The notes under the pieces: generated by a model
Seen by the model: only the letters and a program-made list of their open reading frames with translations
Told to the model about the DNA's origin: nothing
Database searches by the model: none
Source of the DNA: Pacificispira spongiicola
GTDB taxonomy: Bacteria > Pseudomonadota > Alphaproteobacteria > UBA8366 > Aestuariispiraceae
Assembly: GCF_012926505.1 (NCBI RefSeq)
Contig: NZ_JABBNT010000001.1
Span: 186,001 to 250,000 of the forward strand
Direction of reading: 5' to 3'
Length of the DNA stretch: 64,000 nt
Position numbers and translations under genes: made by a program
Shown here: positions 2,304 to 19,479 of the stretch, piece after piece
Position numbering within the stretch: the first letter of the stretch is position 1
Layout of the letters: each line of letters starts with the position of its first letter

Positions 2304-2312
2304 GTGGGATTC

Positions 2313-4201: not shown

Positions 4202-4258
4202 TTGCCCGTCTTTCCTTCGCGTCGGTGGCTTGATAGCCTAGAATGACCGGCAAATGCG

Positions 4259-5116: not shown

Positions 5117-5202
5117 GGCCTCCCGATTATAGCCGTGGCCCATCCGCTTGTTCTTTTCAACCGGACTCGGGTAAACTTAGTGTCTCTATTTTTGACCGGA
5201 TC

Positions 5203-6132
5203 GTGCCGTCCATGTCCCGCGCCAATCCCAAGACAATCGCGCTTGCCCGCCGGATCATGGATATCGTCCGGCATGAGGGGTTGGAGGCGGGAACGCACCT
5301 GCCTGAAACGGGATTGGCCGAAAGGCTGGGGGTATCAAGGTCGCCCGTTCGGACGGCATTGGCCCTGTTGCAGGAACGCGGGGTCGTTTCCACAGCCCCG
5401 AACCAGGGCTATTTCCTGCTGTGCAATACGGATAGCGAGGCCTTCCGCAACGCCGTCCCGCCGGAAAGCCTGGATGAACGCATAACCCGCGACCTCGTCC
5501 GCGCACGCTTTGCCAATCTTGTGCCGGAACAGGTTTCCGTCACGGACGTGATGCGTCGCTACGACCTGGACCGGCCCAGTGCGAATCGCATCCTGTCGGG
5601 CATGGCGCGGGACGGCATCGTTGAACGCGCCGCCGGGCAAGGCTATTCCTTCGGACCCGTCCTGAACGATGCCGACGCTTACGAGGAAAGCTATCGCTAT
5701 CGCCTGCTCATCGAACCGGCGGCCATCCTGGAGCCGGGCTTCGCGCCCGACCCCAAGCGGTTCGAGCAATTGCGCAAACGTCATATCGATCTGCTGGAAG
5801 CCGGGGTCGATAGCGCACCGATGTCCGAACTGTTCGAAATCGATGCCGAATTCCATGAGGCCATCGCCGAAGCCTGCGGCAACCGCTTCCTGCGCCATGC
5901 GATCCAGCTACAGACCCGGCTGCGGCGCCTCAGCGAATACGAAAATTACAGCGAACGGTCGCGGTTACGCGATTCCTGCGAGGAACATCTGGCCATCATG
6001 GATGCGATCCAGGCCGGGCGCGTGAAAGAGGCCGCAACCCTGATGCGCCGCCATATCGAAGTGTCGCGGGACGTCCGCCCGAACTTCAACAAGGTCCGCG
6101 CCCTCGCCCACCGCAAGATGACACGGCGCTAG
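5203..6132 (+). CDS. GntR-family regulator with two winged-helix segments
   Basis: A 309-residue FadR-type GntR regulator. Residues about 10-75 form the usual winged helix-turn-helix (ETGLAERLGVSRSPVRTALALL, then the wing at VVSTAPNQGYFL). The C-terminal half, about 160-300, is the FCD helical ligand-binding domain with its characteristic DAEFHEAIAEACGN segment and a later EEHLAIMDAI stretch containing the conserved His. Between them, residues about 93-152 look like a second winged helix (TDVMRRYDLDRPSANRILSGM and VERAAGQGYSF). The gene is 86 bases after the LuxR gene and convergent with the FAD oxidase gene. It is a likely regulator of the oxidase/Pot-type divergent promoter region. Confidence 0.85.
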   Translation: MPSMSRANPKTIALARRIMDIVRHEGLEAGTHLPETGLAERLGVSRSPVRTALALLQERGVVSTAPNQGYFLLCNTDSEAFRNAVPPESLDERITRDLVRARFANLVPEQVSVTDVMRRYDLDRPSANRILSGMARDGIVERAAGQGYSFGPVLNDADAYEESYRYRLLIEPAAILEPGFAPDPKRFEQLRKRHIDLLEAGVDSAPMSELFEIDAEFHEAIAEACGNRFLRHAIQLQTRLRRLSEYENYSERSRLRDSCEEHLAIMDAIQAGRVKEAATLMRRHIEVSRDVRPNFNKVRALAHRKMTRR

Positions 6133-6145
6133 GCTTCGGTTCCGG

Positions 6146-7498
6146 CTACAGCCACTCGTCCTTGATCGAATAGCCGACATAGGCGGCTTTCAGATAGGCG
6201 GTCCGCAGCGCCGGGAACGGGAAACGCTTCGGCGAATCCGTCATGGGTCGCGGCAGAGCAGCCGCGACGCCGTCGTCCCCCGCCACCAGATCCGCGACCC
6301 GCGCGCCGCTCCAACTCCCCATGGCGACGCCGTTGCCGTGATAGGCCATCGCCGCCCAGCTTTGCGGCATGGACAGGATCGGGCCGATATAGGGAACCAG
6401 ATCGTAGGCAAGGCAGACGAACCCCGCCCATGTCCGCTCGGACGGGATATCGCGCCAGGCCGGAAACATCTTTTCGAAGGATTGGCGCAACCAGTCCCGC
6501 GTCTTGCGGATGCCGTCGGGCGACGCATCGCTGCCGCCACGCCCGCCGAACAGGAAACGCCCGTCGGGCATCAGTCGGAAATAGTGCAAAAGATTCCGCG
6601 TGTCCGCCGACATCAGGTCCGTCGTCCATCCCTGCGCCGCCCGCTCTTCCGGTGTCAGTGGCCGGGTCACCAGAACGCTGGACATCGCGGGCAACAGCCG
6701 CCCCCCCAGCCATGCGGGCAGATTTTCGCTGCTATAACCGTTGGTGGCCAGAATGACGGACCGCGCCTCCACCCTGTATCCGTTGGCACGCAGGACGTGC
6801 CGACCGCCTTCCCAGCGCCAATCCGTGACTTTGCTGTGGCCATGCAGTGTCGCTCCTGACTCGATGGCGACATCGGCGAGGCCGCGGCCGTATTTCAACG
6901 GATGCAGACCGAACCCCAGCGGCGTCTGCAATCCGGCATGAAATTCCGGACCGCTGGCGCCAATTTCCGCCAAGCCGTCGCGATCGTAGAAAGTCGCCTT
7001 CACGCCGTAGATTTTTTCGACCTGGGCGGCCTCTTCCTTCAATTCCGCAACGCGGTTCGGGCGATGTGCCAGCAGCAATTCGCCGTCGCTATGCGTATCT
7101 GCATCGATGCCGTAATCGTCCAGAAAGCTCCGCACATGGTCGATGGCCGCGCGCTGCGCATCGGCAAATTTCTGCGCTTCCGTCAGGCCGTATTTGCGAC
7201 GCATTTCGTCGAATCCGATTTTCGCGGATCCGAGGCAGCAAAACCCGCCGTTCCGGCCGGAGGCTCCCCAGGCAGGCTCCCCCATATCGAAAACACGAAC
7301 ATCCATGCCGTATTGTTTCGCCAGTCGATGGGCGGCGGACAGACCGGTGAACCCGCCACCGATAACGGCAACATCGCAGGTCACCGCTTGATCCAGCGCC
7401 AGGGCCGCGTTCCGCATCGGCGGCGCGCTCGCCAGCCAATGGCTGTCCACCGGACGATCCGGATCGAACGCCGTGGCATGATACAAACGCTTTAACAT
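6146..7498 (-). CDS. FAD-dependent amine oxidoreductase (DAO family, PuuB-like)
   Basis: A 450-residue flavoprotein of the D-amino-acid oxidase family. It has an N-terminal Rossmann motif (CDVAVIGGGFTGLSAAHRL) and GASGRNGGF, and a C-terminal stretch HGNGVAMGSWSGARVADLV that closes the FAD site. The order of motifs is that of gamma-glutamylputrescine oxidase (PuuB) and related amine oxidases. I chose the ATG at 7498 (MLKRLYHATAF); the frame extends 54 bases further but without added conserved sequence. The gene is divergent from the Pot-type ABC operon across a 227-base control region. Its product probably oxidises the imported amine to an aldehyde, which the operon's aldehyde dehydrogenase could then oxidise. 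Confidence 0.87.
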   Translation of the reverse strand: MLKRLYHATAFDPDRPVDSHWLASAPPMRNAALALDQAVTCDVAVIGGGFTGLSAAHRLAKQYGMDVRVFDMGEPAWGASGRNGGFCCLGSAKIGFDEMRRKYGLTEAQKFADAQRAAIDHVRSFLDDYGIDADTHSDGELLLAHRPNRVAELKEEAAQVEKIYGVKATFYDRDGLAEIGASGPEFHAGLQTPLGFGLHPLKYGRGLADVAIESGATLHGHSKVTDWRWEGGRHVLRANGYRVEARSVILATNGYSSENLPAWLGGRLLPAMSSVLVTRPLTPEERAAQGWTTDLMSADTRNLLHYFRLMPDGRFLFGGRGGSDASPDGIRKTRDWLRQSFEKMFPAWRDIPSERTWAGFVCLAYDLVPYIGPILSMPQSWAAMAYHGNGVAMGSWSGARVADLVAGDDGVAAALPRPMTDSPKRFPFPALRTAYLKAAYVGYSIKDEWL

Positions 7499-7725
7499 GG
7501 CAATGCCCCCAAACTTCCCCAATCCGGCTTCCCAGCCGCCGGTCAGGATCACCTAGGCGACCGGTTGTTAATTTCAAGGAAATTCCATGTTGTATTTTTT
7601 TCTGAAATTGTACAACGTAAGAAATGGAATGACCCCGCAACGGGATTATGGCGGGATTATCGGGCGCTCCGGCCAAAACGGCACACAGACCGTGGGGGAG
7701 CGGAAACAGGGAACGGGAGACATCT
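7499..7725. promoter_or_regulatory. Divergent control region of amine oxidase and Pot-type operon
   Basis: This 227-base gap separates two divergent transcription units and contains two AT-rich inverted repeats. One is AATTTC-AAG-GAAATT at 7570-7584. The other is TTGTACAA at 7608-7615, whose right half also pairs with GTTGTA at 7589-7594 (GTTGTA, 16 bases, TACAAC). Both sit on the oxidase-proximal side of a long leader. They are good candidates for operators bound by the nearby GntR or LuxR protein. No clear consensus promoter could be assigned by eye. Confidence 0.4.
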
Positions 7726-8784
7726 ATGAGCACCCTGAAACGTTTTGCCGCGGCCTGCCTTGTCGGGACGGCTGCTATCGCGGTTTCGGTCACGACGGCC
7801 CAAGCCGAAGAGAAAATCGTCATCTCCAACTGGGACGGCTATATGCCGGCCGACATGCTGGAGAAATTCACCGCCGAAACCGGCATCGTCGCCGAAATGG
7901 CGGTCCACGCGACCAACGAAGAAATCATGGGCAAGGTCGTTGCCGGTAAGGGCAAGGGCTATGACGTTCTGTTCGTCTCCTCGCCCTTCGTGGAGGCGTT
8001 GAACCATCTGGGCCTCGTTGCCGAACTGGATCATTCGAAGATCCCGAACATGGCGAACCTGTATCCGCAGGCGATGGAACTTGAATACGATCCGGGCCTG
8101 AAGGTTTCTGTTCCCTATGCCTGGGGCACGACCGGCCTGTGCTATCGGGAAGACCTCGTCTCCCCCGCGCCGACCAGCTGGATGGACCTGTTGGAGCCGA
8201 AGGCAGACCTGAAAGGCAAGATCACCATGCTATCGACCGACCGCTGGTTGATGGCCGCGGCCTTCCTGGCGCAGGGCAAATCGGTCAACTCGACCGACGA
8301 GGCCGACCTGGAAGCGGCGAAAGACCTGCTGATCGCCGCCAAGAAGAACCTGCTGTCCTACGACGACACGACCTTCTATTCGAAGCTGGTGTCCGGCGAG
8401 GCATCCATGGTTCATGCCTGGGACGGCTGGTGCAACTACGGCATCGGAGAAAACGCGGCCATCAAATACGTCATCCCGAAGGAAGGCTCCGACCTGTGGG
8501 TCGACACGATGGTTGTGACCGCCGCATCGGAAAACAAGGACGCGGCCTTCAAGTTCCTGGATTTCGTCCTGAAGGCCGAAAACGGTGCCTGGGTGCCGGC
8601 CAACATCCTGTACAAGGTACCGAACAAGGCGGCCATGGAAGCCCTGGACCCGGCCCTGGTCACGCAGTTCCCGAATCTGGGCATCACGCCTGACGAATTG
8701 CTGTCCCAGGAACAGCTTCGCGATCTGGGGGCGGGCCAAAAGGCCTTCTCCAAGACCGTGACTGAAATTCTGGCGTCCAACTGA
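7726..8784 (+). CDS. ABC transporter substrate-binding protein, spermidine/putrescine type
   Basis: A 352-residue periplasmic binding protein of the PotD/PotF family. It has a Sec signal peptide ending near the AQA-E site at residues 25-27. The mature protein begins with the family-typical VISNWDGYMPADMLEKFTAE. The residues W and Y in VISNWDGY, the SPFVEAL segment and HAWDGWCNYG correspond to regions that line the polyamine site in PotD/PotF. The start at 7726 follows a GGGAGA ribosome binding site and gives a complete signal peptide. It is the first gene of an operon that runs to 16581. The amine ligand is not known. The context with a PuuB-like oxidase argues for a di- or polyamine or an amine conjugate. 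Confidence 0.9.
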   Translation: MSTLKRFAAACLVGTAAIAVSVTTAQAEEKIVISNWDGYMPADMLEKFTAETGIVAEMAVHATNEEIMGKVVAGKGKGYDVLFVSSPFVEALNHLGLVAELDHSKIPNMANLYPQAMELEYDPGLKVSVPYAWGTTGLCYREDLVSPAPTSWMDLLEPKADLKGKITMLSTDRWLMAAAFLAQGKSVNSTDEADLEAAKDLLIAAKKNLLSYDDTTFYSKLVSGEASMVHAWDGWCNYGIGENAAIKYVIPKEGSDLWVDTMVVTAASENKDAAFKFLDFVLKAENGAWVPANILYKVPNKAAMEALDPALVTQFPNLGITPDELLSQEQLRDLGAGQKAFSKTVTEILASN

Positions 8785-8793
8785 TAACGGACC

Positions 8794-8822
8794 GTCCCGC
8801 CGTCTCTCACGGGCGGCGGGAC
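8794..8822 (+). other. Hairpin after the Pot-type binding-protein gene
   Basis: A perfect 8-bp stem, GTCCCGCC paired with GGCGGGAC, with a 13-base loop, begins 10 bases after the binding-protein stop codon. No run of T follows, so it is more likely to protect the upstream mRNA or to limit downstream expression than to terminate fully. Binding-protein genes are commonly expressed above their permeases in this way. Confidence 0.6.
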
Positions 8823-8844
8823 CTTCCGGTTACGGGTTAGAGAT

Positions 8845-9717
8845 ATGCCGGCATCCCGCCTTCGCGATTGGTTGCTTCTGGGACCGGGCCTGTTATGGCT
8901 CGCACTGTTCCTGGTCATCCCCTGCGCCATCGTCTTTTGCTTTTCGTTCTTCGAACGCGGCGTTTACGGCGGCATCGACTATATTTTCACCTTCGAGAAT
9001 TTTCAGCGCGCCATCGACCCGCTGTATTTGTCCATTTTCCTGAAATCCGCGAAAATCGCAGGCACGGCGACGCTGGTCGCCTTGTTCCTCGCCTATCCGG
9101 CGGCCTATGCCATTTCGAAAGCCCCGCCGAACCGCCAGACGGCCCTGCTGGTTCTCGCCATGCTGCCGTTCTGGAGCAACTATCTGATCCGCACCTATGC
9201 CTGGATCGTGTTGCTGAACCGTGAGGGCCTGATCAATACCGGGCTGCGCGACCTGGGCTGGATCGCGGAACCGCTGCCCCTGCTCTATAACGAATTCGCG
9301 ATCATTACGGGCCTCGTGTACAACTACCTGCCCTTCGTGATCCTGGCGGTCTATTCGTCGATCTCGCGTCTGAACCCGGAAATTCTGGAAGCGTCGGAAG
9401 ACCTGGGCGCGCCGTCCTGGAAGACCTTCCTGCGGGTGACGCTGCCGCTGACCATGCCGGGCGTGGCCGCCGGATCCGTTTTCATCTTCGTCCTGTCCAT
9501 CGGCAACTTCATCACCCCCGACCTCTTGGGCGGCGGTAACCTGCTCATGGTCGGCAACATCATCTACGATCAGTTTCTGACCGCCCGCGACTGGCCGTTC
9601 GGCGCGACGCTCAGCTTCATCCTGATCGGCATCATGATGGCCTTGCTGTTCACGCAAGCGATCCTGGTTCGGCGTGCGCAAGGCGATGCGCCAGAGAAGG
9701 AAGAAGCCAATGCGTGA
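8845..9717 (+). CDS. ABC transporter permease, PotB type
   Basis: A 290-residue inner-membrane permease with six predicted helices, the first at about residues 12-32. The EAA loop that contacts the ATPase is visible as EASEDLGAPSWKTFLRVTLP (about 180-200). It follows the binding-protein gene after a 60-base gap containing a hairpin, and it overlaps the next permease by 8 bases. Together with its partner it would form the channel for the amine ligand. Confidence in the family is high. The precise substrate is unknown. Confidence 0.92.
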   Translation: MPASRLRDWLLLGPGLLWLALFLVIPCAIVFCFSFFERGVYGGIDYIFTFENFQRAIDPLYLSIFLKSAKIAGTATLVALFLAYPAAYAISKAPPNRQTALLVLAMLPFWSNYLIRTYAWIVLLNREGLINTGLRDLGWIAEPLPLLYNEFAIITGLVYNYLPFVILAVYSSISRLNPEILEASEDLGAPSWKTFLRVTLPLTMPGVAAGSVFIFVLSIGNFITPDLLGGGNLLMVGNIIYDQFLTARDWPFGATLSFILIGIMMALLFTQAILVRRAQGDAPEKEEANA

Positions 9718-10507
9718 ATTCAAACGCTTCGACCCGACACGCCTGTGGCTCGCGGCGCATCTGCGCTTGGTCTATGTCTTCCTCTACGTCCCGATCGGCG
9801 TGTTGATGGTGTTGAGTTTCAACAAGGCCGGTCTGCCGACGGTATGGAGCGGCTTTTCCTTCGAATGGTACGGCAAGCTGGCTGAAAACGCGGCGATCCT
9901 GTCGGCGGCGCGCAACACGATCGTCGTTGCCGTCATTTCCACGATCCTGGCAACGCTCATCGGCTCTCTGCTGGCAATCGGCATGGAATATCGGCGGCGC
10001 GGCGCAGGATTGGAGGCGATCCTGTTCGCCCCGATGATCATCCCCGACATCGTGCTGGCCATCGCCTTATTGTCCTTCTTCACGCTGTTGGAAGTCACGC
10101 TGGGCTTGCATTCGATCATCTTGAGTCATGTCGTCTTCAACATCGCCTTCGTCTGCGCGGTGGTGCGCACGCGCCTTCGCAGTTTCGACTGGTCCGTCTT
10201 CGAAGCCTCCATCGATCTGGGCGCGACGGAAATCACGACCTTTCGCCGGATCATCCTGCCCGCCATCCTGCCGGGCGTGATCGCCGGTGCGATGTTGTCC
10301 TTCACCCTGTCGGTGGACGAATTCATCATCGCCTATTTCACCGCCGGGGCGGGTCAAAGCTCCACCACCTTGCCGATGCAGATTTATTCCATGATCCGCT
10401 TCGGCGTGACGCCCGAAATCAACGCGATGGCAAGCATCGTCATGCTGGTCAGCTTCACGCTGGTCATCGCCGCACAGCGCATCAATAAGGAGTCCGTGAC
10501 CGGATGA
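9710..10507 (+). CDS. ABC transporter permease, PotC type
   Basis: A 265-residue second permease of the polyamine-type importer with six predicted helices. The EAA loop reads EASIDLGATEITTFRRIILP and is followed by a helix and the sequence SVDEFIIAYFTAGAG, typical of PotC. The ATG at 9710 is preceded by the purine-rich AGAAGGAAGAA and overlaps the end of the PotB-like gene by 8 bases. The frame is open upstream to 9674 but that stretch would only duplicate the partner's tail. The 3' end overlaps the ATPase gene by 4 bases (ATGA). Confidence 0.92.
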   Translation: MREFKRFDPTRLWLAAHLRLVYVFLYVPIGVLMVLSFNKAGLPTVWSGFSFEWYGKLAENAAILSAARNTIVVAVISTILATLIGSLLAIGMEYRRRGAGLEAILFAPMIIPDIVLAIALLSFFTLLEVTLGLHSIILSHVVFNIAFVCAVVRTRLRSFDWSVFEASIDLGATEITTFRRIILPAILPGVIAGAMLSFTLSVDEFIIAYFTAGAGQSSTTLPMQIYSMIRFGVTPEINAMASIVMLVSFTLVIAAQRINKESVTG

Positions 10508-11580
10508 GCGACCAAGACCGCACCGTCATCCGCATTGAAGGGGTCAGCAAACGCTTCGGCCCCGTCACCGCCGTCGATTCCATCGATCTGGACCTGCGGG
10601 AAAACGAGTTCTTCGCCCTGCTGGGCCCCAGCGGCTGCGGCAAGACCACGCTGTTGCGAATGATCGCGGGGTTCGCCGATCCGTCGGAAGGCCGCATCCT
10701 TCTGGACGGACAGGACATGACCCCGATCCGCCCCAACCGCCGACCGATCAATCTGATGTTTCAGTCCTATGCCCTGTTTCCGCATATGACCGTGGCGAAA
10801 AACATCGCCTACGGTCTGGAAATGGAAAACCTCGACAAAGCCGACCTGAACCGCCGCGTCGATGAAATCCTGGAAAAGACGGAACTATCGGCGATGCGCA
10901 ACCGGAAACCGGACCGGCTGTCGGGCGGCCAGCGGCAGCGTGTGGCCCTCGCCCGCGCCCTGGTCAAGAAACCGCGTGTCCTGTTGTTGGACGAACCGCT
11001 GGGCGCGTTGGATAAAAAGCTGCGCGAACAGATGCAGTTGGAATTGAAGCGGATGCAGCACGAATTCAGCATCACCTTCGTTATCGTGACACACGATCAG
11101 GAAGAAGCCCTGGTCATGGCGGACCGCATCGCGGTGCTGAAGGACGGACGCGTCGCCCAGATCGGCGCACCGCGCGACCTGTACGAAAACCCCGCGGATC
11201 GTTTCGTCGCCGGGTTCATCGGGAAAATGAACTTCTTCCCCGGCACGGTGGCCGGCACCGGCGTATCCTTCGCCGGGCAGAGTGTGCTGACCGGAGACAT
11301 CCCGACCGGCCTGTCCGGCGAGGCGGTGGCCGCCGTCCGCCCGGAACGGATAAAGCTGAGCGTCGAACAACCGGCTGGCGACATGAATGCGATGCCGGGA
11401 ACCATTTCGGAAGTCGCCTATCACGGTCAGGATGTGAACCTGCATGTCACCGTCGACGGATGCGACGATCCGGTCCTGGTACGCGTGCCCGCAACGGATG
11501 CCGACGAAACGGTCTGGCACCATGGCGGCAAGGTCTGGTGCAGCTGGAATCCGGCGCATACCCGCATTCTGGCCGCGTAG
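10504..11580 (+). CDS. ABC transporter ATP-binding protein, PotA type
   Basis: A 358-residue ATPase that powers the importer. It has Walker A GPSGCGKTT (41-49), Q-loop FQSYALFPH, signature LSGGQRQRVALARAL (139-153), Walker B VLLLDEP (159-165) and the H-loop VTHDQEEAL. The last 120 residues form the TOBE regulatory domain usual in PotA/UgpC-type ATPases. It is translationally coupled to the upstream permease by an ATGA overlap. The four Pot-type genes thus form a complete importer, and the next gene starts 36 bases later, after an AGGAGG ribosome binding site. Confidence 0.93.
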   Translation: MSDQDRTVIRIEGVSKRFGPVTAVDSIDLDLRENEFFALLGPSGCGKTTLLRMIAGFADPSEGRILLDGQDMTPIRPNRRPINLMFQSYALFPHMTVAKNIAYGLEMENLDKADLNRRVDEILEKTELSAMRNRKPDRLSGGQRQRVALARALVKKPRVLLLDEPLGALDKKLREQMQLELKRMQHEFSITFVIVTHDQEEALVMADRIAVLKDGRVAQIGAPRDLYENPADRFVAGFIGKMNFFPGTVAGTGVSFAGQSVLTGDIPTGLSGEAVAAVRPERIKLSVEQPAGDMNAMPGTISEVAYHGQDVNLHVTVDGCDDPVLVRVPATDADETVWHHGGKVWCSWNPAHTRILAA

Positions 11581-11616
11581 AAACACGAGAGACACAAGGG
11601 AACAGGAGGCACGATC

Positions 11617-12915
11617 ATGTCAGACAAGAAAACCATCGCATTCTTCCCGGAGGCCGCCTTCGGCCCGGCGCTGAACTCCGTCGGGATCGCCCAGGCCTGC
11701 GAAAAGCTGGGCCACAAGGCGGTTTTCCTGACCGATCCCGGCATGGGCGGCGTGTATTCGGGCTATGGCTTCGAAGAGCATCTGGTGAACATGTCCGAAC
11801 CCATGCCACCGGAAGAAATGGCGAAATATTGGGTCGACTTCATCAACGGGCATATCCCGAATTTCAACAAGACCCCGTATGAGCAGATCGACAATTACGT
11901 GAAGGATTGCTGGGACGCGATCGTCGAAACCTCCATCTGGGCGGAAAAGGACCTCCCTAGTGTTCTGGACAAGGTGAAGCCGGACGTCGTCTGCGTCGAC
12001 AACGTGATCCTGTTCCCGGCGATCAAGCGCTATTGCCGCGAAAACGGAAAGGCCTGGGTCCGGGTCATTTCCTGCTCCGAAAACGAAATCACGGACCCGG
12101 ATATTCCCCCGCACCTGTCCGGTTGCGGCGAGAACGACAAGGAATGCTTCGAAAAGTTCGATACGAAGTTCAAGGGAACCGTCAAACCGGCCCATGAAAA
12201 ATTCAACGCCTTCCTGGCCGAATGCGGGGAGGAACCGTATGAGCTGGGCGAATTCTTCGAGGCCTCGCCCTTCCTGAACCTGCTTTTGTATCCGGAACCG
12301 GCGAAGTTCAAACGCCGCAACCCGCTGGACCCGAAGCAGTTCCAGTATCTCGAAGGCTGCGTCCGGGACGAAAAACCTTACGACATCCCGACGTTCGAAA
12401 AGAACAACGACAAGCCGATCCTCTATGTCAGCTTCGGCAGCCTTGGATCGGGCGATACGGACCTGCTGAAACGCATCATCGACACGCTGGGCACGATGGA
12501 TGTCCGCGCCCTGGTCAATGTCGGCGATTACAAGGACCAGTACGGCGCCCTGCCCGGCAATGTGCAGATCGACAGCTGGTTCCCGCAACCGTCCGTCATC
12601 AAGCAGATGGACGCGGTCATCCACCATGGCGGCAATAATAGCTTCAACGAATGCCTCTATTTCGGCGTTCCGGCCATCGTCATGCCCTATGTCTGGGACG
12701 GCCACGACAACGCGACGCGGGTTCAGGAAACCGGCCACGGCCTGTATATGCACCGCGCCAATTGGACGGCGGATCAACTGAAGGCGAATATCCAGACGCT
12801 GCTGACCGACCCGGCCATGAAGACGAAACTGGCCGCGACGTCCGCCCATATGCAGGGTCAGAACGGTCCGGCGAAGGCGGCGAAACTTCTCGACGCCCTG
12901 GCAAAGGATGCGTGA
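11617..12915 (+). CDS. GT1-type glycosyltransferase in amine operon
   Basis: A 432-residue protein of the GT-B fold, family GT1/MGT type. The C-terminal nucleotide-sugar domain is well conserved: ILYVSFGSLG (268-277), WFPQPSVIKQMD (321-332), HHGGNNSFNECLYFGVPAIV (336-355) and the DGHDNATRVQETGHG stretch (361-375) that ends the donor site. In the N-terminal domain the segment that usually reads GHxxP and carries the catalytic His reads FGPALN here, so the standard base seems absent. It follows the Pot-type ATPase by 36 bases and precedes the first cupin by 3. It would transfer a sugar to, or act on a sugar attached to, the imported compound. The acceptor is unknown, and no antibiotic or lipid context is present. 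Confidence 0.82.
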   Translation: MSDKKTIAFFPEAAFGPALNSVGIAQACEKLGHKAVFLTDPGMGGVYSGYGFEEHLVNMSEPMPPEEMAKYWVDFINGHIPNFNKTPYEQIDNYVKDCWDAIVETSIWAEKDLPSVLDKVKPDVVCVDNVILFPAIKRYCRENGKAWVRVISCSENEITDPDIPPHLSGCGENDKECFEKFDTKFKGTVKPAHEKFNAFLAECGEEPYELGEFFEASPFLNLLLYPEPAKFKRRNPLDPKQFQYLEGCVRDEKPYDIPTFEKNNDKPILYVSFGSLGSGDTDLLKRIIDTLGTMDVRALVNVGDYKDQYGALPGNVQIDSWFPQPSVIKQMDAVIHHGGNNSFNECLYFGVPAIVMPYVWDGHDNATRVQETGHGLYMHRANWTADQLKANIQTLLTDPAMKTKLAATSAHMQGQNGPAKAAKLLDALAKDA

Positions 12916-12918
12916 CGA

Positions 12919-13287
12919 ATGACCGCGAATCTTGCTTCTTCCGCACCGTATATCCAAGGCGTAACCGCGTGGTCCGAGGACCTCGCCGACTGGGGTGTTC
13001 AACCGGACGCCCTGGACGGGGAAAGCCGCAATTCCGGGCGTCTTCTCTGGAAAGGGCCGGTCGCGAACCGGCCCGAATCCGGGGTATGGGTCTGCACGCC
13101 GGGCCGCTGGCGGCTGAAGCTGCCGGCGGATGAGCTGTGTCACTTCGTTTCCGGCCGGGCGACCTACCGCTCCGACGAAGGCGAGGTGATCGAGGTCACG
13201 CCCGGCACCGTCGTGCACTTCCGGGAAGGCTGGGCCGGCGAATGCACGGTCCATGAGACCATACGCAACGTCTATATGCTGATTTGA
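12919..13287 (+). CDS. Cupin protein 1 of 3 (EutQ/cupin_3 type)
   Basis: A 122-residue single-domain cupin of the DUF861/cupin_3 group. The beta-barrel core spans SGVWVCTPGRWRLKLP, DELCHFVSGRATYR and EVTPGTVVHFREGW, and ends with HETIRNVYML. The E and H of DELCHF and the H of VVHFRE are candidate metal ligands. It begins 3 bases after the glycosyltransferase stop. Related cupins include ureidoglycine aminohydrolase and EutQ, so an enzymatic or binding role on a small amine compound is possible but not shown. Confidence 0.85.
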   Translation: MTANLASSAPYIQGVTAWSEDLADWGVQPDALDGESRNSGRLLWKGPVANRPESGVWVCTPGRWRLKLPADELCHFVSGRATYRSDEGEVIEVTPGTVVHFREGWAGECTVHETIRNVYMLI

Positions 13288-13295
13288 AGGTAACG

Positions 13296-13661
13296 ATGGC
13301 CGCCCGTTTCGACTCGACCGCCCCTCATATCCAGGACGCCTCCCACTGGGCGGAGAACCTGACCGATTGGGGACCGCATTTGGAGCCGATCGACGGACGG
13401 TCGCACAATACCGGACGGTTGCTGTGGAAAGGCGAGGACGGGCTGCCGGAGGCGGGTTTGTGGATCTGCACCCCCGGTAGCTGGCGTCTGACCCTGCCGC
13501 GGGACGAGTTGTGTCACTTCCTGTCCGGGCGTGCCGTCTATCGGCGGGACGACGGGGAGGAAATCCAGATCACCCCCGGCACCGTCGTGCATTTTCGCGA
13601 GGACTGGTCCGGTACCGTCGAAGTCTTCGAAACCATTCGAAGCGTTTACATGCTCCGCTAG
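13296..13661 (+). CDS. Cupin protein 2 of 3
   Basis: A 121-residue paralogue of the preceding cupin with the same layout: SGRLLW homologue NTGRLLWKG, GLWICTPGSWRLTLP, DELCHFLSGRAVYR, TPGTVVHFREDW and ETIRSVYMLR. I place the start at the ATG at 13296, which has a GAAGG ribosome binding site five bases upstream. A TTG at 13284 overlapping the previous stop is a weaker alternative. All candidate metal residues seen in copy 1 are kept. Confidence 0.85.
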   Translation: MAARFDSTAPHIQDASHWAENLTDWGPHLEPIDGRSHNTGRLLWKGEDGLPEAGLWICTPGSWRLTLPRDELCHFLSGRAVYRRDDGEEIQITPGTVVHFREDWSGTVEVFETIRSVYMLR

Positions 13662-13674
13662 AAAGGGCGCATCC

Positions 13675-14031
13675 ATGAGTGACTTTTCCCCCACCCCCGT
13701 ACTGCACAACCCGATGGACGTCGAAGATATCGTTGATTGGGGCGTGATCCCGACGATGATCGAGGGCGAGTCCCGCACCTCCGGCAAGCTGCTGTACAAA
13801 GGCCCGGACGGATCGCCGGAAAGCGGCATCTGGATCTGCACGCCGGGCTATTGGGAATGCCATGTGACGAAAGACGAATTCTGTCACTTCCTGTCGGGCC
13901 GCTGCACCTATACCCACGAGTCCGGGGAAGTGATCGAGATCGTCCCGGACACGGCGGCCTTCTTCCCGCAAGACTGGAAAGGGACATGCCGCGTCCATGA
14001 AACGATCCGTAAGGTCTATATGATTCGATGA
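13675..14031 (+). CDS. Cupin protein 3 of 3, diverged metal site
   Basis: A 118-residue third paralogue. It keeps SGKLLYKG, SGIWICTPGYWECHV, DEFCHFLSGRCTY and HETIRKVYMIR, but the segment that reads GTVVHFRE in copies 1 and 2 reads DTAAFFPQ here. The candidate metal-binding His is lost and the following Arg-Glu is replaced. It may therefore be a regulatory or binding partner of the other two rather than an enzyme. Its ATG at 13675 follows AAAGGG, and its stop overlaps the next gene by 4 bases. Confidence 0.85.
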   Translation: MSDFSPTPVLHNPMDVEDIVDWGVIPTMIEGESRTSGKLLYKGPDGSPESGIWICTPGYWECHVTKDEFCHFLSGRCTYTHESGEVIEIVPDTAAFFPQDWKGTCRVHETIRKVYMIR

Positions 14032-15053
14032 CCGGGACCGACCGGAACGCGGCGCGGCGCGCCTTTGCCGTCGCCGCCGGATGGGGCGATGCGCCGGAAA
14101 CGGCGCTGCCCGCCGATGCGTCCTTCCGCCAGTACTATCGCCTGAACCGTGCCGACGGGACGTCCACCCTGATCATGGACGCCCCGCCGGACAAGGAAGA
14201 CGTGCACCCCTATATCGCCGTCGACGAGCACTTGGTTTCCTTGGGCCTCAGCGCCCCGCGCATCCTGGCCCAAGACGCGGATCGAGGATTCCTGCTGCTG
14301 GAGGATTTCGGCGACGGGACCTTCACCAATCTCTTCGCGCGGGGGACGGCCGACGGCCCGCTCTACGATCTGGCAACGGACGCATTGATCGCCCTGCATC
14401 GCGCGGAAGGGGTGGCCGCCCTGGATGTCCCGCCATACGACATGGATGTGTTGCTTCGCGAAGCGTTGCTGCTGCCGGAATGGCTCTACCCTGCCCAGAC
14501 CGGGCATGCCTGCCTGCCGGAAGTTCGGGAGGACTATGCCCGCGCATGGCGGACGGTATTCGATAGCCTTCCACCGGTGCCGGATACGCTGGTCCTGCGC
14601 GATTATCACGTCGACAACTTGATGCGACTGGACGGTCGCAACGGGGCGGCCGCCTGCGGTCTGCTGGACTTTCAGGACGCGCTGATCGGCCCCCGCGCCT
14701 ATGACCTCGTTTCCCTGCTGGAAGACGCGCGCCGGGACATTGATGCGGATATCGTTGCCCGCTGCCGCGCCCGATATATCGCGGGGATGGGCACTATGCT
14801 GGAAGACGAAGCCGCCTTCGACCGCTGGTACCGTGCCCTCGGCGCGCAGCGGCATGCGAAGGTCGCCGGGATCTTCACCCGTCTGATGAAGCGGGACGGC
14901 AAACCGAAATACCTGATCCACATTCCCCGCGTGGTCCGGCTGTTGCGCCGCCACCTGGAAACCGCGCCGGACCTGGCGCCGGTCGCGGACTGGTTCGCGA
15001 CCCATCTGCCGACATTCGACGCACCGTTGCCGCCGCCCGCTGAATGGGGCTGA
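14028..15053 (+). CDS. AmgK-like kinase (aminoglycoside phosphotransferase fold)
   Basis: A 341-residue kinase. Conserved regions are DASFRQYYRLNR and LIMDAPPDKED in the N-lobe, GFLLLEDFGDGTF in the hinge region, LRDYHVDNLM as the catalytic loop (Asp of the Brenner motif) and LLDFQDALIGPRAYDLVSLL as the metal-binding segment. This exact order is that of AmgK, the anomeric kinase for N-acetylmuramate/N-acetylglucosamine in cell-wall recycling. AmgK genes normally pair with murU, which is absent here. Instead the gene is coupled by ATGA to the third cupin and followed by an aldehyde dehydrogenase. It may phosphorylate a sugar released from, or an amino alcohol derived from, the imported compound. 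Confidence 0.82.
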   Translation: MTGTDRNAARRAFAVAAGWGDAPETALPADASFRQYYRLNRADGTSTLIMDAPPDKEDVHPYIAVDEHLVSLGLSAPRILAQDADRGFLLLEDFGDGTFTNLFARGTADGPLYDLATDALIALHRAEGVAALDVPPYDMDVLLREALLLPEWLYPAQTGHACLPEVREDYARAWRTVFDSLPPVPDTLVLRDYHVDNLMRLDGRNGAAACGLLDFQDALIGPRAYDLVSLLEDARRDIDADIVARCRARYIAGMGTMLEDEAAFDRWYRALGAQRHAKVAGIFTRLMKRDGKPKYLIHIPRVVRLLRRHLETAPDLAPVADWFATHLPTFDAPLPPPAEWG

Positions 15054-15072
15054 CAGGCACTAGGAGACCGTA

Positions 15073-16581
15073 ATGACCGACTTCGACACTTTCGCCCCCC
15101 GCATCTTCGCCGGGAACGCCTACCCGATCCTGGACGGCGCCGCGACCAAGACACTGATCGACCCTGCCAGCCTGGCGGAAGTCGGTCGGATCGCGCTGTG
15201 CACCGACGCCCAGGTGGAAACGGTTATCGCCGACGCCAATGCGGCCCAAAAGTCCTGGAAGCGCATGGACGCGAAGTCTCGCGCCAAGCTGCTGCACAAG
15301 ATCGCGGATTCCATCGAAACGACGGACTTCCACGACGTGGCCATTCTGATGGTCCGCGAAATGGGCAAACCCTATCCGGAAGCGACGGGCGAATTGGCGA
15401 ATTGCGGGGCCATCTTCCGCTACTACGCCGAATTGGCGCGGGACGAGGCGGGCAAGATCGCCGGGACGACCCAAACCGGATCGTTCCAGTTTTCCCGCTA
15501 TGAACCCTATGGCGTCAGCGTCCATATCATGCCGTTCAACTTCCCCATCCTATTGATGTGCTGGACCCTGGCGGCATCGCTGGCCGCCGGGAATGCCTGT
15601 ATCGTGAAGCCGGCGGAAGCGACATCGCTCTGCACGCTGAAATTCATGGAGCATTTCAAAATCCTCGCCCCGGGCATGGTGTCCTGCGTCACCGGCGGGG
15701 CGGAAACGGCCCAGGCGCTGATCCGGTCCAAGAACACCCATGCGGTCGCCTTCACCGGCAGCGTCGCGGCGGGCAAGATGGTCAACATGGCCTGCGCGGA
15801 ACAGATGAAACCCTGCGTCATCGAAGCGGGCGGCAGCGACCCGATGATCATTTCCGAACACGCGCCGCTGGACGTCGCGGTGCCGGGATCGGTCACGGCG
15901 GCCTTCCATCTGTCCGGCCAGATTTGCACCTCCGCCGAACGGTTCTTCGTAGATGAGAAGGTGCATGACGCTTTCGTCACCCGTTTCGCCGAAGCCGCAT
16001 CGAAACTGCGCGTCGGACCGGGCCTGGAAAAATCGGAAATCGGCCCCCTGGTCAGCGAGGCGGCCCGCAACAAGGTTATCGATCTGGTCGGCGACGCCGT
16101 CGCCAACGGCGCGAAGGCCGTCATCGGCGGGCGCGTACCGCCGGATTACAACACCGGCTGGTTCTACGAACCGACGATCCTGACCGGGGTCACGCCGGAT
16201 ATGCGCATCATGCGGGAGGAAGTCTTCGGCCCCGTCGCGTCGATCTGCAAAGTCTCCAGCTTCGACGAGGCCCTGCGCCTCGCCAATGACAGCGACTTCG
16301 GTCTCGGCGCCTCCGTCTTCACGTCGGATATGGGCGAGGCCATGCAGGCGGCGGAGGAATACGAATCCGGCATGGTCTGGGTCAACAACCCGTTGATCGA
16401 CAACGACGCCCTGCCCTTCGGCGGTTGGAAGCTGTCCGGCACCGGACGGGAACTGGGCCGCCACGGACTGGACGCGTTCCGACAGACGAAGATGGTCATC
16501 ATCGACGCCAAACCGGAGGTCCAGGAATGGTGGTACCCGTATCCCGAAGACTGGTTCTACGACGGTTCCGGACGCTTCTGA
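15073..16581 (+). CDS. NAD(P)-dependent aldehyde dehydrogenase
   Basis: A 502-residue member of the aldehyde dehydrogenase superfamily. The oxyanion Asn is in PFNFP (N156), the cofactor loop is FTGSVAAG (228-235), the general base is E251 in IEAGGSDP and the nucleophile is C285 in GQICTSAER. The C-terminal residues GWKLSGTGRELGRHG are typical of the superfamily's oligomerisation end. It is the last gene of the Pot-type operon, 19 bases after the kinase, and its stop codon abuts the stop of the convergent TRAP permease. It probably oxidises the aldehyde made by the divergent FAD oxidase. The unusual hydrophobic Trp/Tyr-rich tail (EWWYPYPEDWFYDG) may shape the active site or dimer contacts. Confidence 0.9.
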   Translation: MTDFDTFAPRIFAGNAYPILDGAATKTLIDPASLAEVGRIALCTDAQVETVIADANAAQKSWKRMDAKSRAKLLHKIADSIETTDFHDVAILMVREMGKPYPEATGELANCGAIFRYYAELARDEAGKIAGTTQTGSFQFSRYEPYGVSVHIMPFNFPILLMCWTLAASLAAGNACIVKPAEATSLCTLKFMEHFKILAPGMVSCVTGGAETAQALIRSKNTHAVAFTGSVAAGKMVNMACAEQMKPCVIEAGGSDPMIISEHAPLDVAVPGSVTAAFHLSGQICTSAERFFVDEKVHDAFVTRFAEAASKLRVGPGLEKSEIGPLVSEAARNKVIDLVGDAVANGAKAVIGGRVPPDYNTGWFYEPTILTGVTPDMRIMREEVFGPVASICKVSSFDEALRLANDSDFGLGASVFTSDMGEAMQAAEEYESGMVWVNNPLIDNDALPFGGWKLSGTGRELGRHGLDAFRQTKMVIIDAKPEVQEWWYPYPEDWFYDGSGRF

Positions 16582-17898
16582 TCAGCGTCGGATCCAGTCG
16601 GGCAGTCCGGTCGCCAGTTCCGGGACCAGGACAATCAGCGCCAGCACGATCAGTTCCAGCAGGATGAAGGGATAGGTCGACCGGTAAACATCGCCGATGG
16701 TGATGCCGGGCGGCGCGACCCCCTTCATGACGTAGAGCAACATGCCGAAGGGCGGCGTGGTGAAGCTGATTTCCATCACGACCAGCATCAATACGCCGAA
16801 CCAGATCATGTCGAACCCGGCAGCCTGCGCCAGCGGTATGAAGAAAGGCAGCGTGATCAGGATCATGCTGACCTGATCCATGAAGCACCCCAGGAACAGC
16901 AAGACCACCAGCATCGCCAGCAACAGGGCGAAGGACGACAGATCGAATCCTTGAATCCAGCCGAGCAGCCCATCCGCCGCGCCGGAGAAGGCAAGGATTT
17001 GCGAGAAGGTCAGCGACGCGCCGATGATGAACAGCACCATCACCGAAATCTTCGCCGTTTCCAGCAGCGACACCATCATGTTCTTCACAGTGACCCGCCC
17101 ATAGGCCAAGCAGGCCAGGAACGCGGCGACGGAGCCCAGCGCCGCCGATTCTGTCGGTGTCGCCCAACCGGCCAGGATACTGCCGACGACGACGACGAAG
17201 ATCGTAAACAGCGGCACGACATAGACCAGGGACGGCTTCACCCGATCCCAGAACGGCATCGCCTCCACCTCATAGGACGGGGCCAAAGACGGGTTCAGCC
17301 GGCAGCGCACGATGATGTAGAGCAAGAACGCCGCCCCCATCAGGAAGCCCGGCACGATCCCGGCGATCAGCAGTTGGGAAATCGACATCCCGGCGAGGGA
17401 GCCCAGCAACACGGCCAATGCCGACGGTGGGATCAACATCGCGATCGACCCGGTGGCCATGATCGGTCCCATGGCGATCGTCGGGTGATAGCCCCGCTTC
17501 AGCATGTCGGGCAGCAGGGCGCTGCCCAGAACGGCGGTATTCGCGATGGTCGACCCGGATAAGGAGGAAAAGACGATCCCGCCCCCGACCGCGACGATGG
17601 ACAGACGCCCCGGCACTTTCGTGATTAAGCGATCAATCGCATCGATAGCGCGGAAGGCGACGCCCGTATGAAACAGAATTTCGCCCATCAGCAGGAACAG
17701 CGGGATCGGCGCCAGAGAAAAATTGCTGAGCGCGGCGACGGTGTTCCGCGCGACCTGCTCCAGCCCCGCCTCGCCCCCCAGGAAGATGAAGGCGCCCAGC
17801 AGGTTGATGCCCAGAAAGGCAAAGGCGACCGGCAGGCCGAACGCCATCAATAAGACCATGCCGCCGATCAGCAGCGTCAGGGAAAGACCCCAATCCAT
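16582..17898 (-). CDS. dctM: TRAP transporter large permease (DctM)
   Basis: A 438-residue membrane protein with about twelve predicted helices, the large subunit of a TRAP importer that couples organic-acid uptake to a sodium gradient. Family features include the N-terminal MDWGLSLTLLIGGMVLLMAFGLPVAFAF-type start (first helix at about 4-28), SLSGSTIANTAVLGSALLPDMLKRGY around residue 112-138 and GSILAGWATPTESAALG around 235. It lies 2 bases after dctQ. There is no spacer at all between its stop and that of the convergent aldehyde dehydrogenase gene. Confidence 0.94.
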   Translation of the reverse strand: MDWGLSLTLLIGGMVLLMAFGLPVAFAFLGINLLGAFIFLGGEAGLEQVARNTVAALSNFSLAPIPLFLLMGEILFHTGVAFRAIDAIDRLITKVPGRLSIVAVGGGIVFSSLSGSTIANTAVLGSALLPDMLKRGYHPTIAMGPIMATGSIAMLIPPSALAVLLGSLAGMSISQLLIAGIVPGFLMGAAFLLYIIVRCRLNPSLAPSYEVEAMPFWDRVKPSLVYVVPLFTIFVVVVGSILAGWATPTESAALGSVAAFLACLAYGRVTVKNMMVSLLETAKISVMVLFIIGASLTFSQILAFSGAADGLLGWIQGFDLSSFALLLAMLVVLLFLGCFMDQVSMILITLPFFIPLAQAAGFDMIWFGVLMLVVMEISFTTPPFGMLLYVMKGVAPPGITIGDVYRSTYPFILLELIVLALIVLVPELATGLPDWIRR

Positions 17899-17900
17899 GA

Positions 17901-18401
17901 TTACAGCCCCTCCGTCAGCGGCGGCGCGATTCTATGGCCCGCAAGCCGCCGGGCGAATTCCACGGTCAGCAGGATACCCGCCACAGGCAGGATCGCCATC
18001 AGCCACCATTCGGGGAAGATCAGTTCCTTGAAGATCAGTTCCCCGCGTTCGAACGCCTTGACCGCGACGCGGCTACCGTACCAGGTGAACAGGGCGCAAA
18101 CCGCGAAGCCCAGAGTGTCGGCCAGGATATCGAGCCTATGCGCCCATTTTCCCGGCAGCTTCGTGACCAGCACGTCGACGCGCACATGGCTTCCCTGATT
18201 GAGGACCCAGGGCGCCAACAGAAAACTGACGGCGAACAGCGCGTATTCGACGCTTTCGAGAAGCCAGGGGAAGCTGGCGGTCCCGATATTCCGCAGGATG
18301 ACGTCCAGGCTGACCATCACAGCAATCAGCCCCAAACAGATGCCGCCCAAATAGCCCAGACAGAGCAGAAATCCATCATACCAGGACACCAGTTTCGACA
18401 C
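17901..18401 (-). CDS. dctQ: TRAP transporter small permease (DctQ)
   Basis: A 166-residue four-helix membrane protein, the small subunit of the TRAP importer. It has the conserved region DVILRNIGTASFPWLLESVEYALFAVSFLLAP (about 29-60, helix 2) followed by GSHVRVDVLV, which is diagnostic for DctQ. It is placed between dctP and dctM as in most TRAP operons and would hold DctM in the membrane complex. Confidence 0.93.
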   Translation of the reverse strand: MSKLVSWYDGFLLCLGYLGGICLGLIAVMVSLDVILRNIGTASFPWLLESVEYALFAVSFLLAPWVLNQGSHVRVDVLVTKLPGKWAHRLDILADTLGFAVCALFTWYGSRVAVKAFERGELIFKELIFPEWWLMAILPVAGILLTVEFARRLAGHRIAPPLTEGL

Positions 18402-18449
18402 GTCCCATCCCTCCCGAAATCTCTTCTTAACCAGCCCTTATATACAAAA

Positions 18450-18485
18450 GTCCCGACGCCCGGCATTCAGCCGTTGCGCCGGGAC
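18450..18485 (-). other. Hairpin after the TRAP binding-protein gene
   Basis: On the minus strand, 14 bases past the dctP stop, GTCCCGGCGCAACGGC can fold back on GCCGGGCGTCGGGAC with a 5-base loop and two mismatched positions. It lies between dctP and dctQ and has no T-run immediately after it, so an mRNA-stabilising or partly attenuating hairpin is most likely. Confidence 0.5.
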
Positions 18486-18498
18486 GAGAGCCTAACCC

Positions 18499-19479
18499 TT
18501 ACTTGGTCAGCAGACCTTTGATTTTTTCGCCGTTCTCGGGGTTCGTCTTGATGAACTCCGCCCAGCCGGCCTCACGCGCGGTTTCCAGATACTTTTCGGC
18601 ATCCGCACCGGTGAAGGAGATGACCTGGATACCGGCCTCTTCCTGACGCTTCAGTTCTGCCGCGGATTTCACCTTCTCGGCTTCGCAGCCCTTTTCGATT
18701 TCGAAGGCCGCGTCCTGCAGAACTTTCTTCTGGGCTTCGTCCAACCCGTTCCAGGCATCGAGGTTGATGATGAACTCGACGGAGGAGCGATAGAAGGACG
18801 GGTCGACACGATACTTCGTCACTTCCGCCCAACCCAGGTCGAAAATCCCCTGGCTCGGCCAGCCGTAGCCATCGACCGCTCCGCGTTCCAGCGCGGTATA
18901 GACGTCACCCGGCTTGGTTTGAATGGCGGTCGCCCCCAGCGCCGTGAAGAAGGCGCGGTAGATCGGCGTCACGCGGATTTTCAGACCCGTCAGGTCGGGG
19001 CTGTCGATCGGCTTGTTGAGGTAGAGATGAAACGGAATGCATTCCGTCTGCCGCGCCAGATGATAGACGTTCATCTTTTGCATGTGCAGGTCGTTCATAT
19101 AGGCCCAGGCGCCGTTCTCACGTTCTTCCGTGATCGTGTATTCGGACATTTTGACGGCGTCGATTTCCGGCAGCAGCTTCGTATAGAACGCGCCCGGCAG
19201 GTTGCCGATCTGCACCACCCCGGACCGGACGGCATCGCCCAGTTCGAATGGATTGATGACCTTACCGCCACCGCCTTTGTAGGAAATCTGAACCTGGCCC
19301 TTGCCGGTCTCGTTCACCATGTCGATGAACTCTTCGAAATGGCGCGAAAAGATCGTGCCTTCGGCGAAGCCGCTGACCGCGTTCAAGGTGACTTCTTCGG
19401 CCTGGGCCGGCGCGGTGAACGCGGTAGCGGCAAACGCCAGACCGGCGACCGCCGACAGAAGTGATTTCGTCCCCATCAT
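18499..19479 (-). CDS. dctP: TRAP transporter substrate-binding protein (DctP)
   Basis: A 326-residue periplasmic protein with a Sec signal peptide (cleavage after the AQA at about residue 26-28). The family's carboxylate-binding Arg is expected in GLKIRVTPIYRAFFTALGATAI, where IRVT holds the Arg. Further typical stretches are PGDVYTALERGAVDGYGWPSQGI and FIINLDAWNGLDEAQKKVL. The sequence resembles DctP proteins of the YiaO/TakP-like group but does not reveal the ligand. The start at 19479 is followed by a complete signal sequence and preceded by GGGAGAGAAAC. Confidence 0.92.
   Translation of the reverse strand: MMGTKSLLSAVAGLAFAATAFTAPAQAEEVTLNAVSGFAEGTIFSRHFEEFIDMVNETGKGQVQISYKGGGGKVINPFELGDAVRSGVVQIGNLPGAFYTKLLPEIDAVKMSEYTITEERENGAWAYMNDLHMQKMNVYHLARQTECIPFHLYLNKPIDSPDLTGLKIRVTPIYRAFFTALGATAIQTKPGDVYTALERGAVDGYGWPSQGIFDLGWAEVTKYRVDPSFYRSSVEFIINLDAWNGLDEAQKKVLQDAAFEIEKGCEAEKVKSAAELKRQEEAGIQVISFTGADAEKYLETAREAGWAEFIKTNPENGEKIKGLLTK

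Follow-up and report, generated by a model that had tools for sequence, protein, structure and literature searches.

Within a stretch of 64,000 nucleotides of the Pacificispira spongiicola genome (contig NZ_JABBNT010000001.1, positions 186,001 to 250,000; hereafter the window, in whose coordinates positions are given), ten genes on the + strand at 7726-16581 form an operon in which a Pot-type importer (PotD-B-C-A) is followed by a GT1-fold glycosyltransferase (hereafter GT1), three EutQ-like cupins, an AmgK-like kinase and an aldehyde dehydrogenase (ALDH). The importer genes encode a PotD-type solute-binding protein (7726-8784; Pfam SBP_bac_8, and an HMMER alignment with the PotD chain 8y5h_E), a PotB-type permease (8845-9717; Pfam BPD_transp_1), a PotC-type permease (9707-10507; Pfam) and a PotA-type ATPase (10504-11580; NCBIfam TIGR01187, 382.4 bits, cut-off 355.6). 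GT1 (11617-12915) was assigned by Pfam, an AlphaFold2 (AF2) model, fold match and residue alignments, and is followed by the cupins Cup1 (12919-13287; Pfam PF05899), Cup2 (13296-13661; Pfam, read from an ATG start, with a TTG at 13284 also possible) and Cup3 (13675-14031; Pfam, tree, AF2 and fold matches), the APH-fold kinase (14028-15053; Pfam APH) and the ALDH (15073-16581; Pfam Aldedh). A DAO-type FAD oxidase (6146-7498, - strand; Pfam PF01266) lies divergent to the operon. Genes were called from open frames and similarity, and not with a trained gene finder. The original prediction had described this operon, and the spacings that it gave (3, 8, 13, -4 and 19 bases) proved exact; each family that it had named scores above the Pfam gathering score, its PuuB-like oxidase being the divergent DAO-type flavoenzyme, at the level of the family. 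Overall, ten window proteins, plus the ALDH and the LuxR, GntR and DctQ proteins, exceeded the Pfam gathering score.

The source genome carries one full-length GT1, and GT1 was found in 2 of 14 genomes of the family and 7 of 43 genomes of the order, a distribution that rules out a housekeeping glycosyltransferase. A contig search confirmed 323 GT1 loci, of which the best 80 were taken further; their record titles include Mesorhizobium, Rhizobium, Shinella, Defluviimonas and Pelagibius, as well as metagenome-assembled genomes (MAGs) called Kiloniellaceae or Gammaproteobacteria. Together with six loci from a phylum sample and two haloarchaeal plasmids, these gave the 88 loci compared here, the window itself being excluded. 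Neighbors were counted up to 8 kb from GT1, and 55 of the 88 loci, with 5.5 kb upstream and 4.5 kb downstream, were considered well flanked. In these 55, the most frequent neighbors were a cupin (52), PotB and PotC (50 each), PotD and ALDH (49 each), PotA (46), a GntR homologue (43) and a second GT1 (38), followed by a saccharopine-dehydrogenase-like gene (17), a second type of ALDH (16), a DAO gene (15), a gene resembling glutamine synthetase (GS-like; 14), an APH kinase (7), AOR (2), a ROK kinase with a phosphosugar mutase (2) and an HDAC-family gene (1). PotD, cupin and ALDH occurred jointly in 45/55, and a GS-like gene plus DAO in 12/55. The arrangement is conserved far beyond the source genome and is therefore more than chance: the unit recurs in records titled Alpha- and Gammaproteobacteria, and its core on the two haloarchaeal plasmids. 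The original prediction had itself raised the possibility that the block stands beside Pot genes only by chance, which for the glycosyltransferase and the cupin does not agree with their joint occurrence in 45 loci. Of the gene set that it had proposed, the glycosyltransferase and cupin with Pot and ALDH recur, whereas the kinase is optional and the number of cupins varies; in Pelagibius litoralis DSM 21314 (L027), for example, PotDBCA, GT1, two cupins and ALDH are found with no kinase near. Nor is the Pot importer constant, being absent or swapped for a Liv-type importer in some loci (L018 and L034, with the layout of the latter also in L040 and L094).

The tightest association is that of GT1 with the cupin. 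In a class sample (thresholds E <= 1e-80 for GT1 and E <= 1e-30 for the cupin), both were found in the same 13/385 genomes, side by side by coordinates in all 13. In the phylum sample, the same 8/398 genomes hold GT1 and a strong cupin (at least 125 bits), adjacent in seven and on different contigs in one (G165), and seven further genomes have cupin relatives of at most 91 bits only. Among plasmids, a cupin was found in 11 records, precisely those in which GT1 reaches >=59% identity across 96-97% of its length, and four more distant or partial GT1 relatives (33-46% identity) had no cupin at the threshold used. Match thresholds for the sample searches and neighbor counts were our own choice, and the counts are not independent events, since the samples hold related genomes (the 13 GT1 genomes of the class sample fall in nine genera) and have two genomes (G000 and G050) in common. 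The co-occurrence in class and phylum samples rules out a chance neighborhood, and the cupin lies directly downstream of GT1 in 70 of the 88 loci. The two genes form a tightly linked unit of amine metabolism, even if its chemistry differs from that proposed below, and it is the common part across loci, mostly in a setting of amine oxidation. The two proteins probably act on the same glycoside.

The AF2 model of GT1 (pLDDT 93.1, pTM 0.91; 57 sequences) has the GT-B fold of UDP-glycosyltransferases (UGTs), with 7mco as the best fold match in the PDB (TM 0.87-0.88) and the spider-mite enzymes UGT203A2 and UGT202A2 as the nearest solved folds (TM 0.81-0.89). This fold and the C-terminal nucleotide-binding motif are shared with known GT1 UGTs (the two mite enzymes and macrolide glycosyltransferases), but the window-type proteins differ from them at conserved positions. 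In the window protein, Pro17 occupies the site of the catalytic His of UGTs, Asp128 (which by position we take to be the Asp of the UGT His-Asp dyad) is kept, and Gly362 replaces the Gln of the donor motif. Across 120 sequences, divided at 600 bits to the window GT1 into GT1a and GT1b, the catalytic column holds Pro in 83/83 GT1a, and Ala in 36/37 and Ser in 1/37 GT1b, with no His in any of the 120; Asp128 is kept, and the donor-motif Gln is replaced by Gly, in 120/120. A later set of 31 sequences, which includes the window and is partly drawn from the same genomes, showed Pro in 26 and Ala in 5, Asp in 31, Gly in 30 with one truncated, and an invariant acidic residue, Glu, at E12 in all 31. 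Because the loss of the catalytic His is conserved, His-independent transfer to nitrogen would fit this enzyme. According to the portion of PMC12246196 available to us, plant UGTs with Cys in place of the catalytic His still N-glycosylate, proximity being suggested as possibly sufficient, and these Cys-type enzymes also keep weak O-glycosylation, so that the loss of His is a hint, and not proof, of N-transfer. The residual O-activity is consistent with an alternative in which GT1 places the sugar on a hydroxyl or carboxyl group of a product that has been oxidised or hydroxylated. Such glycosylation could provide a sink, a form for export or a means of detoxification, with the cupin modulating or undoing it. 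In its favor, several of the nearest folds were solved with flavonoids, and two loci carry a PhyH-family dioxygenase directly after GT1 (L033) and a Rieske-domain protein after the cupin (L037), respectively. Given that His is absent from every sequence in both sets, we regard O- or carboxyl-glycosylation as unlikely. Mite UGTs are of bacterial origin, a matter on which it may bear that the closest solved relatives of the bacterial window GT1 are mite UGTs.

All three window cupins belong to Cupin_3 (PF05899; 53.9, 55 and 61.5 bits, gathering score 23.5). In a tree, Cup1 and Cup2 fall in one half and Cup3 in the other, together with the two haloarchaeal cupins. The HxH metal motif is missing from these proteins, whose E48 and E67 do not vary within the aligned sets. 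The AF2 model of Cup3 (pLDDT 96.4) matches the folds of DUF861 structures, 3bcw, EutQ and, at a lower level, PpnP. The last of these is a nucleoside phosphorylase that splits N-glycosides (nucleosides); PpnP is of a different family, and the similarity is by fold only. With EutQ and the DUF861 cupins the window proteins share family, fold and the lack of the HxH motif, but they occur in up to three copies after a glycosyltransferase, and no eut genes were found among the window proteins scanned. In the part of PMC3483176 that we could draw on, EutQ is described as metal-independent, with a Glu/Asp pair as a possible binding site for sugars or a nucleotide, and no ligand or activity is reported for the C. 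difficile protein.

The original prediction of a complete polyamine-type importer holds with regard to its four Pot genes and the PotA-type ATPase, which is above the TIGR01187 cut-off, but not for assignment to the polyamine transporters proper. The ATPase is below the PotA equivalog NF006987 (376.8 vs 482), PotC (254.9 vs 326) and PotD (162 vs 582) are below their equivalog cut-offs, and the acids of the spermidine site are changed. In the alignment with 8y5h_E, PotD E36 corresponds to Gly, D168 to Thr and E171 to Trp, three positions that, by the numbering and roles we assume for PotD, make up three of its four acidic spermidine contacts; W229, W255 and D257 are kept. The resulting ligand site is specific to the group (NWDGY, TDRW, AWDGWCNY, W258 and D260) and near-invariant in 57 sequences (the window and 56 binding proteins scoring >400 bits to it, a set that excludes lower scorers such as that of L033). 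With its pocket remodelled in this way, the binding protein probably takes up an amine, though perhaps one other than plain putrescine or spermidine or another common polyamine.

On the side of the oxidising enzymes, the best NCBIfam models for the ALDH are BADH, aminobutyraldehyde dehydrogenase and SSADH, all below cut-off, as are all of the 25 (of 42) model matches listed for it, and the DAO protein is below the cut-off of all 17 models that it matched, so that NCBIfam does not name the substrates of either enzyme. A DAO relative is divergent in L016 and L009, and lies after the ALDH on the same strand in L119, L230 and L231. In many Rhizobium-type loci (L042, L038, L073, L120 and others), the ALDH is followed by a saccharopine-dehydrogenase-like gene whose best solved relative is carboxyspermidine dehydrogenase. 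Polyamine context in the window itself comes from two genes outside the operon, AguB (2313-3176, - strand; NCBIfam 462.3 bits, cut-off 410.25) and an HDAC-family amidohydrolase (3173-4201, - strand; Pfam Hist_deacetyl). Elsewhere, context of this kind is seen in the 12 well-flanked loci with a GS-like gene plus DAO, in the wider surroundings of the Natrialba GT1 and next to a cupin in L175 (both described below). Taken together, the operon is very probably an amine catabolic unit, and the oxidation of amine to acid put forward in the original prediction is a plausible direction.

The closest known parallel is the Puu/Pau gamma-glutamylation pathway, which has an importer, a DAO-type oxidase and an ALDH in common with the window operon at family level, and in which the gamma-glutamyl group is held to stop the amino-aldehyde from cyclising. 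The window operon has GT1 and cupins instead of a gamma-glutamyl synthetase and hydrolase; no gamma-glutamylamine synthetase or hydrolase was found among the window proteins scanned (942-19479). A group blocking one amine would explain the set of enzymes. The source genome has ten matches to the GS family, all below the cut-off of 650 for gamma-glutamylputrescine synthetase, a score that no control genome, E. coli included, reached.

The same core recurs in more distant settings. On Natrialba magadii pNMAG01 and a Natronorubrum plasmid, the two archaeal records, GT1, cupin and ALDH lie on one strand, and in both loci (L095 and L099) they adjoin a phosphosugar mutase gene and, on the opposite strand, a ROK kinase gene. 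In Natrialba, the nearest NCBIfam models of these two proteins are glucokinase and archaeal GlmM, both below cut-off. Within ~22 kb of the haloarchaeal GT1 there are also genes for GS-family proteins, an FAD oxidase, a type 1 glutamine amidotransferase, a class III-type aminotransferase and Pot-type proteins, and in Natrialba only an HDAC gene. Among the bacterial variants, Mesorhizobium-type loci add GS-like and DAO genes. In L034, a Liv-type importer (a Peripla_BP_6 binding protein, a pair of BPD_transp_2 permeases and an ATPase of branched-chain type) follows GT1 and two cupins, and a GcvT-like gene flanks them on the opposite side; L040 and L094 match this layout by gene clusters. L018 combines two cupins, a ROK-family protein, two Liv-type permeases, GT1, a kinase, AOR and a saccharopine-dehydrogenase-like gene; its ROK-family protein (L018:3957-5129), which adjoins the cupins, has a helix-turn-helix domain, and ROK-family proteins with this domain sense sugars.

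Linkage, the co-occurrence of glycosyltransferase and cupin, residue changes and gene context are what we observed, and from them we infer each chemical step of the following scheme, in which a polyamine-type amine would be taken up and catabolized with a sugar as a temporary mask on its nitrogen. The Pot-type importer, by its family and context, would bring in an amine, and GT1 would then transfer a sugar from a nucleotide-sugar to one amino group. The DAO oxidase could convert the free amine end to an aldehyde, and the ALDH the aldehyde to an acid, with the mask preventing the amino-aldehyde from cyclising, by analogy with the gamma-glutamyl group in Puu. The EutQ-like cupin, as partner of the glycosyltransferase, would cleave the glycoside by hydrolysis or phosphorolysis. 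Where a sugar kinase is present, it may finally return the sugar to a sugar-1-phosphate, through an AmgK-like enzyme or, in the two haloarchaea, a ROK kinase with a phosphosugar mutase. As a whole, this scheme is a tentative one, and we place it slightly short of probable.

The original prediction had allowed for uptake of either a glycosylated or a glycosylatable amine. Of these, import of a glycosylated compound is less favored than glycosylation inside the cell, because the haloarchaeal ROK kinase and mutase beside the glycosyltransferase could in principle supply sugar-1-phosphate for synthesis. If the imported ligand were already a glycosyl-amine, GT1 acting in reverse would salvage the nucleoside-diphosphate sugar and the kinase would salvage the free sugar, a reading close to that of the original prediction. 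The near-invariant, remodelled binding pocket is in keeping with such a ligand, as is the occurrence of an AmgK-like kinase both here and in 9 of the 88 other loci. Its presence in only 7 of the 55 well-flanked loci speaks against this reading, as do the haloarchaeal ROK kinase and mutase; we consider import of a glycosyl-amine quite unlikely.

Besides the altered acidic contacts of PotD and the O-activity of Cys-type UGTs described above, several observations weigh against the masking scheme. There is no cupin near GT1 in 16 of the 88 loci. We checked the genomes of 14 of these 16 (two loci cut off within 350 bases were excluded; all 14 genomes carry MAG in their titles, and in some the contig stops shortly after GT1), with positive controls L015 and L042 both detected: 8/14 are without any strong cupin, and 6/14 have one elsewhere, which in three genomes (L094, L176 and L090) adjoins another GT1 copy. 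The cupin searches of the class and phylum samples scored at most 11 candidates per genome, so that a genome counted as lacking the cupin may still hold one. No kinase lies near GT1 in 48 of the 55 well-flanked loci. The polyamine neighbors of the window are not conserved, with an HDAC gene near one of the 55 GT1 loci (AguB was not searched for), and the Pfam scan of the window operon revealed no glycosidase. GS-like genes lie near GT1 in 14/55, and gamma-glutamylation may run alongside the GT1 system, since the source genome has several GS-family genes. In one locus (L227), two GT1 genes, a cupin and an ALDH occur together with a GcvT-like gene and a flavoenzyme of the OYE type that has an ETF/Fe-S protein beside it, which points to N-methyl amines. 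In another (L229), two GT1 genes and a cupin lie near a LivK-type binding protein; these two loci are perhaps an N-methyl-amine version of the system. The variety of importers and oxidisers with which the pair is combined (Pot with ALDH, Liv with a GcvT-like protein, Liv with AOR in L018), like the genomes with GT1 and no strong cupin, would agree with a role away from the substrate itself, in which GT1 and the cupin produce or renew either a small cofactor that carries a sugar or a ligand signal, in the service of amine or aldehyde oxidation. With a PotD-type gene tied to GT1 in 49 of the 55 well-flanked loci, however, we give this role little credence.

If sugar masking does take place, it would constitute an additional route of polyamine catabolism. 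A review on the use of polyamines by bacteria (PMC9397018) lists, in its portion available to us, five characterised routes (gamma-glutamylation, aminotransferase, direct oxidation, spermine/spermidine dehydrogenase and acetylation), and in this text no word starting with 'glycosyl' or 'cupin' was found. The text of PMC8394153 mentions neither glycosyl nor cupin, and that of PMC8437039 neither glycosyltransferase nor cupin. Among the matches listed in the open-licence literature, nothing relevant to glycosylated polyamines was found, and none describes a pathway that combines this gene set, in agreement with the original prediction. EutQ-type cupins would also gain a chemistry, and the His-free GT1 would become a candidate amine N-glycosyltransferase. 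That the route, with a His-less GT1, a metal-free cupin cleaving an N-glycoside, and recycling by a kinase or a kinase plus mutase, is common to bacteria and haloarchaea is possible but rather doubtful. Even if the chemistry differs, the glycosyltransferase-cupin pair is undescribed in the literature reached and is amenable to work with purified proteins.

The kinase has a more irregular history, and its presence in 7/55 well-flanked loci rules it out as a core part. It shares the APH fold with AmgK, the anomeric MurNAc/GlcNAc kinase, with similarity over most of its length, but at 232.8 bits it is below the AmgK cut-off (NF045698, 500), lies in an amine operon and is not beside murU. AmgK, as described in the part of PMC5371407 available to us, phosphorylates MurNAc and GlcNAc at C1 to sugar-1-phosphates. 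AmgK-like genes are present in all 14 family genomes and stay below the AmgK cut-off in every one; of four surroundings read, the gene adjoins a murU-like gene in two (L145 and L146) and not in the others (L143 and L144). The kinases near GT1 in other loci (L016, L018, L028, L050, L073, L084 and L116-L118) do not form one clade, which suggests repeated recruitment, although the support for deep branches is modest. The window kinase groups (0.922) with the kinase of L018 and the AmgK-like genes of G001, G002 and G003. These three family members yielded no GT1, and in the two that were read the kinase is not beside murU. This grouping is compatible with a housekeeping AmgK that moved into the operon by chance and has no role in the pathway, as is the finding of no second AmgK-like gene in the source genome, whose murU locus (G000:C13, L148, with genes presumed to encode AddB and TsaE) has no amgK between the tsaE-like gene and murU. 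The lack of a single clade among the kinases in the GT1 loci of other lineages speaks against such a move, as does the genome of L016, which keeps a separate AmgK-like gene beside a murU-like gene, and we judge a chance move of the kinase somewhat unlikely.

Around the operon, a GntR/FCD regulator (5203-6132, + strand; Pfam) lies beyond the DAO gene. Exact inverted repeats of 6 bases were sought as a shared operator in the upstream regions of 57 PotD genes, and no repeat was common to more than two. A lyase of the PurB/carboxymuconate-cycloisomerase superfamily stands together with AguB and the HDAC-family gene at 942-4201 on the - strand. In L175, a lone cupin of the family adjoins a PAD_porph (agmatine-deiminase-like, below cut-off) gene. 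In L225, GT1 and cupin are immediately preceded, on their own strand, by an alpha-amylase-family gene (L225:2599-4335, - strand), a possible further link to sugar. On the downstream side of the window operon, a TRAP importer (16582-19479, - strand) converges on it, and a TRAP set akin to that of the window adjoins the same operon in L074.

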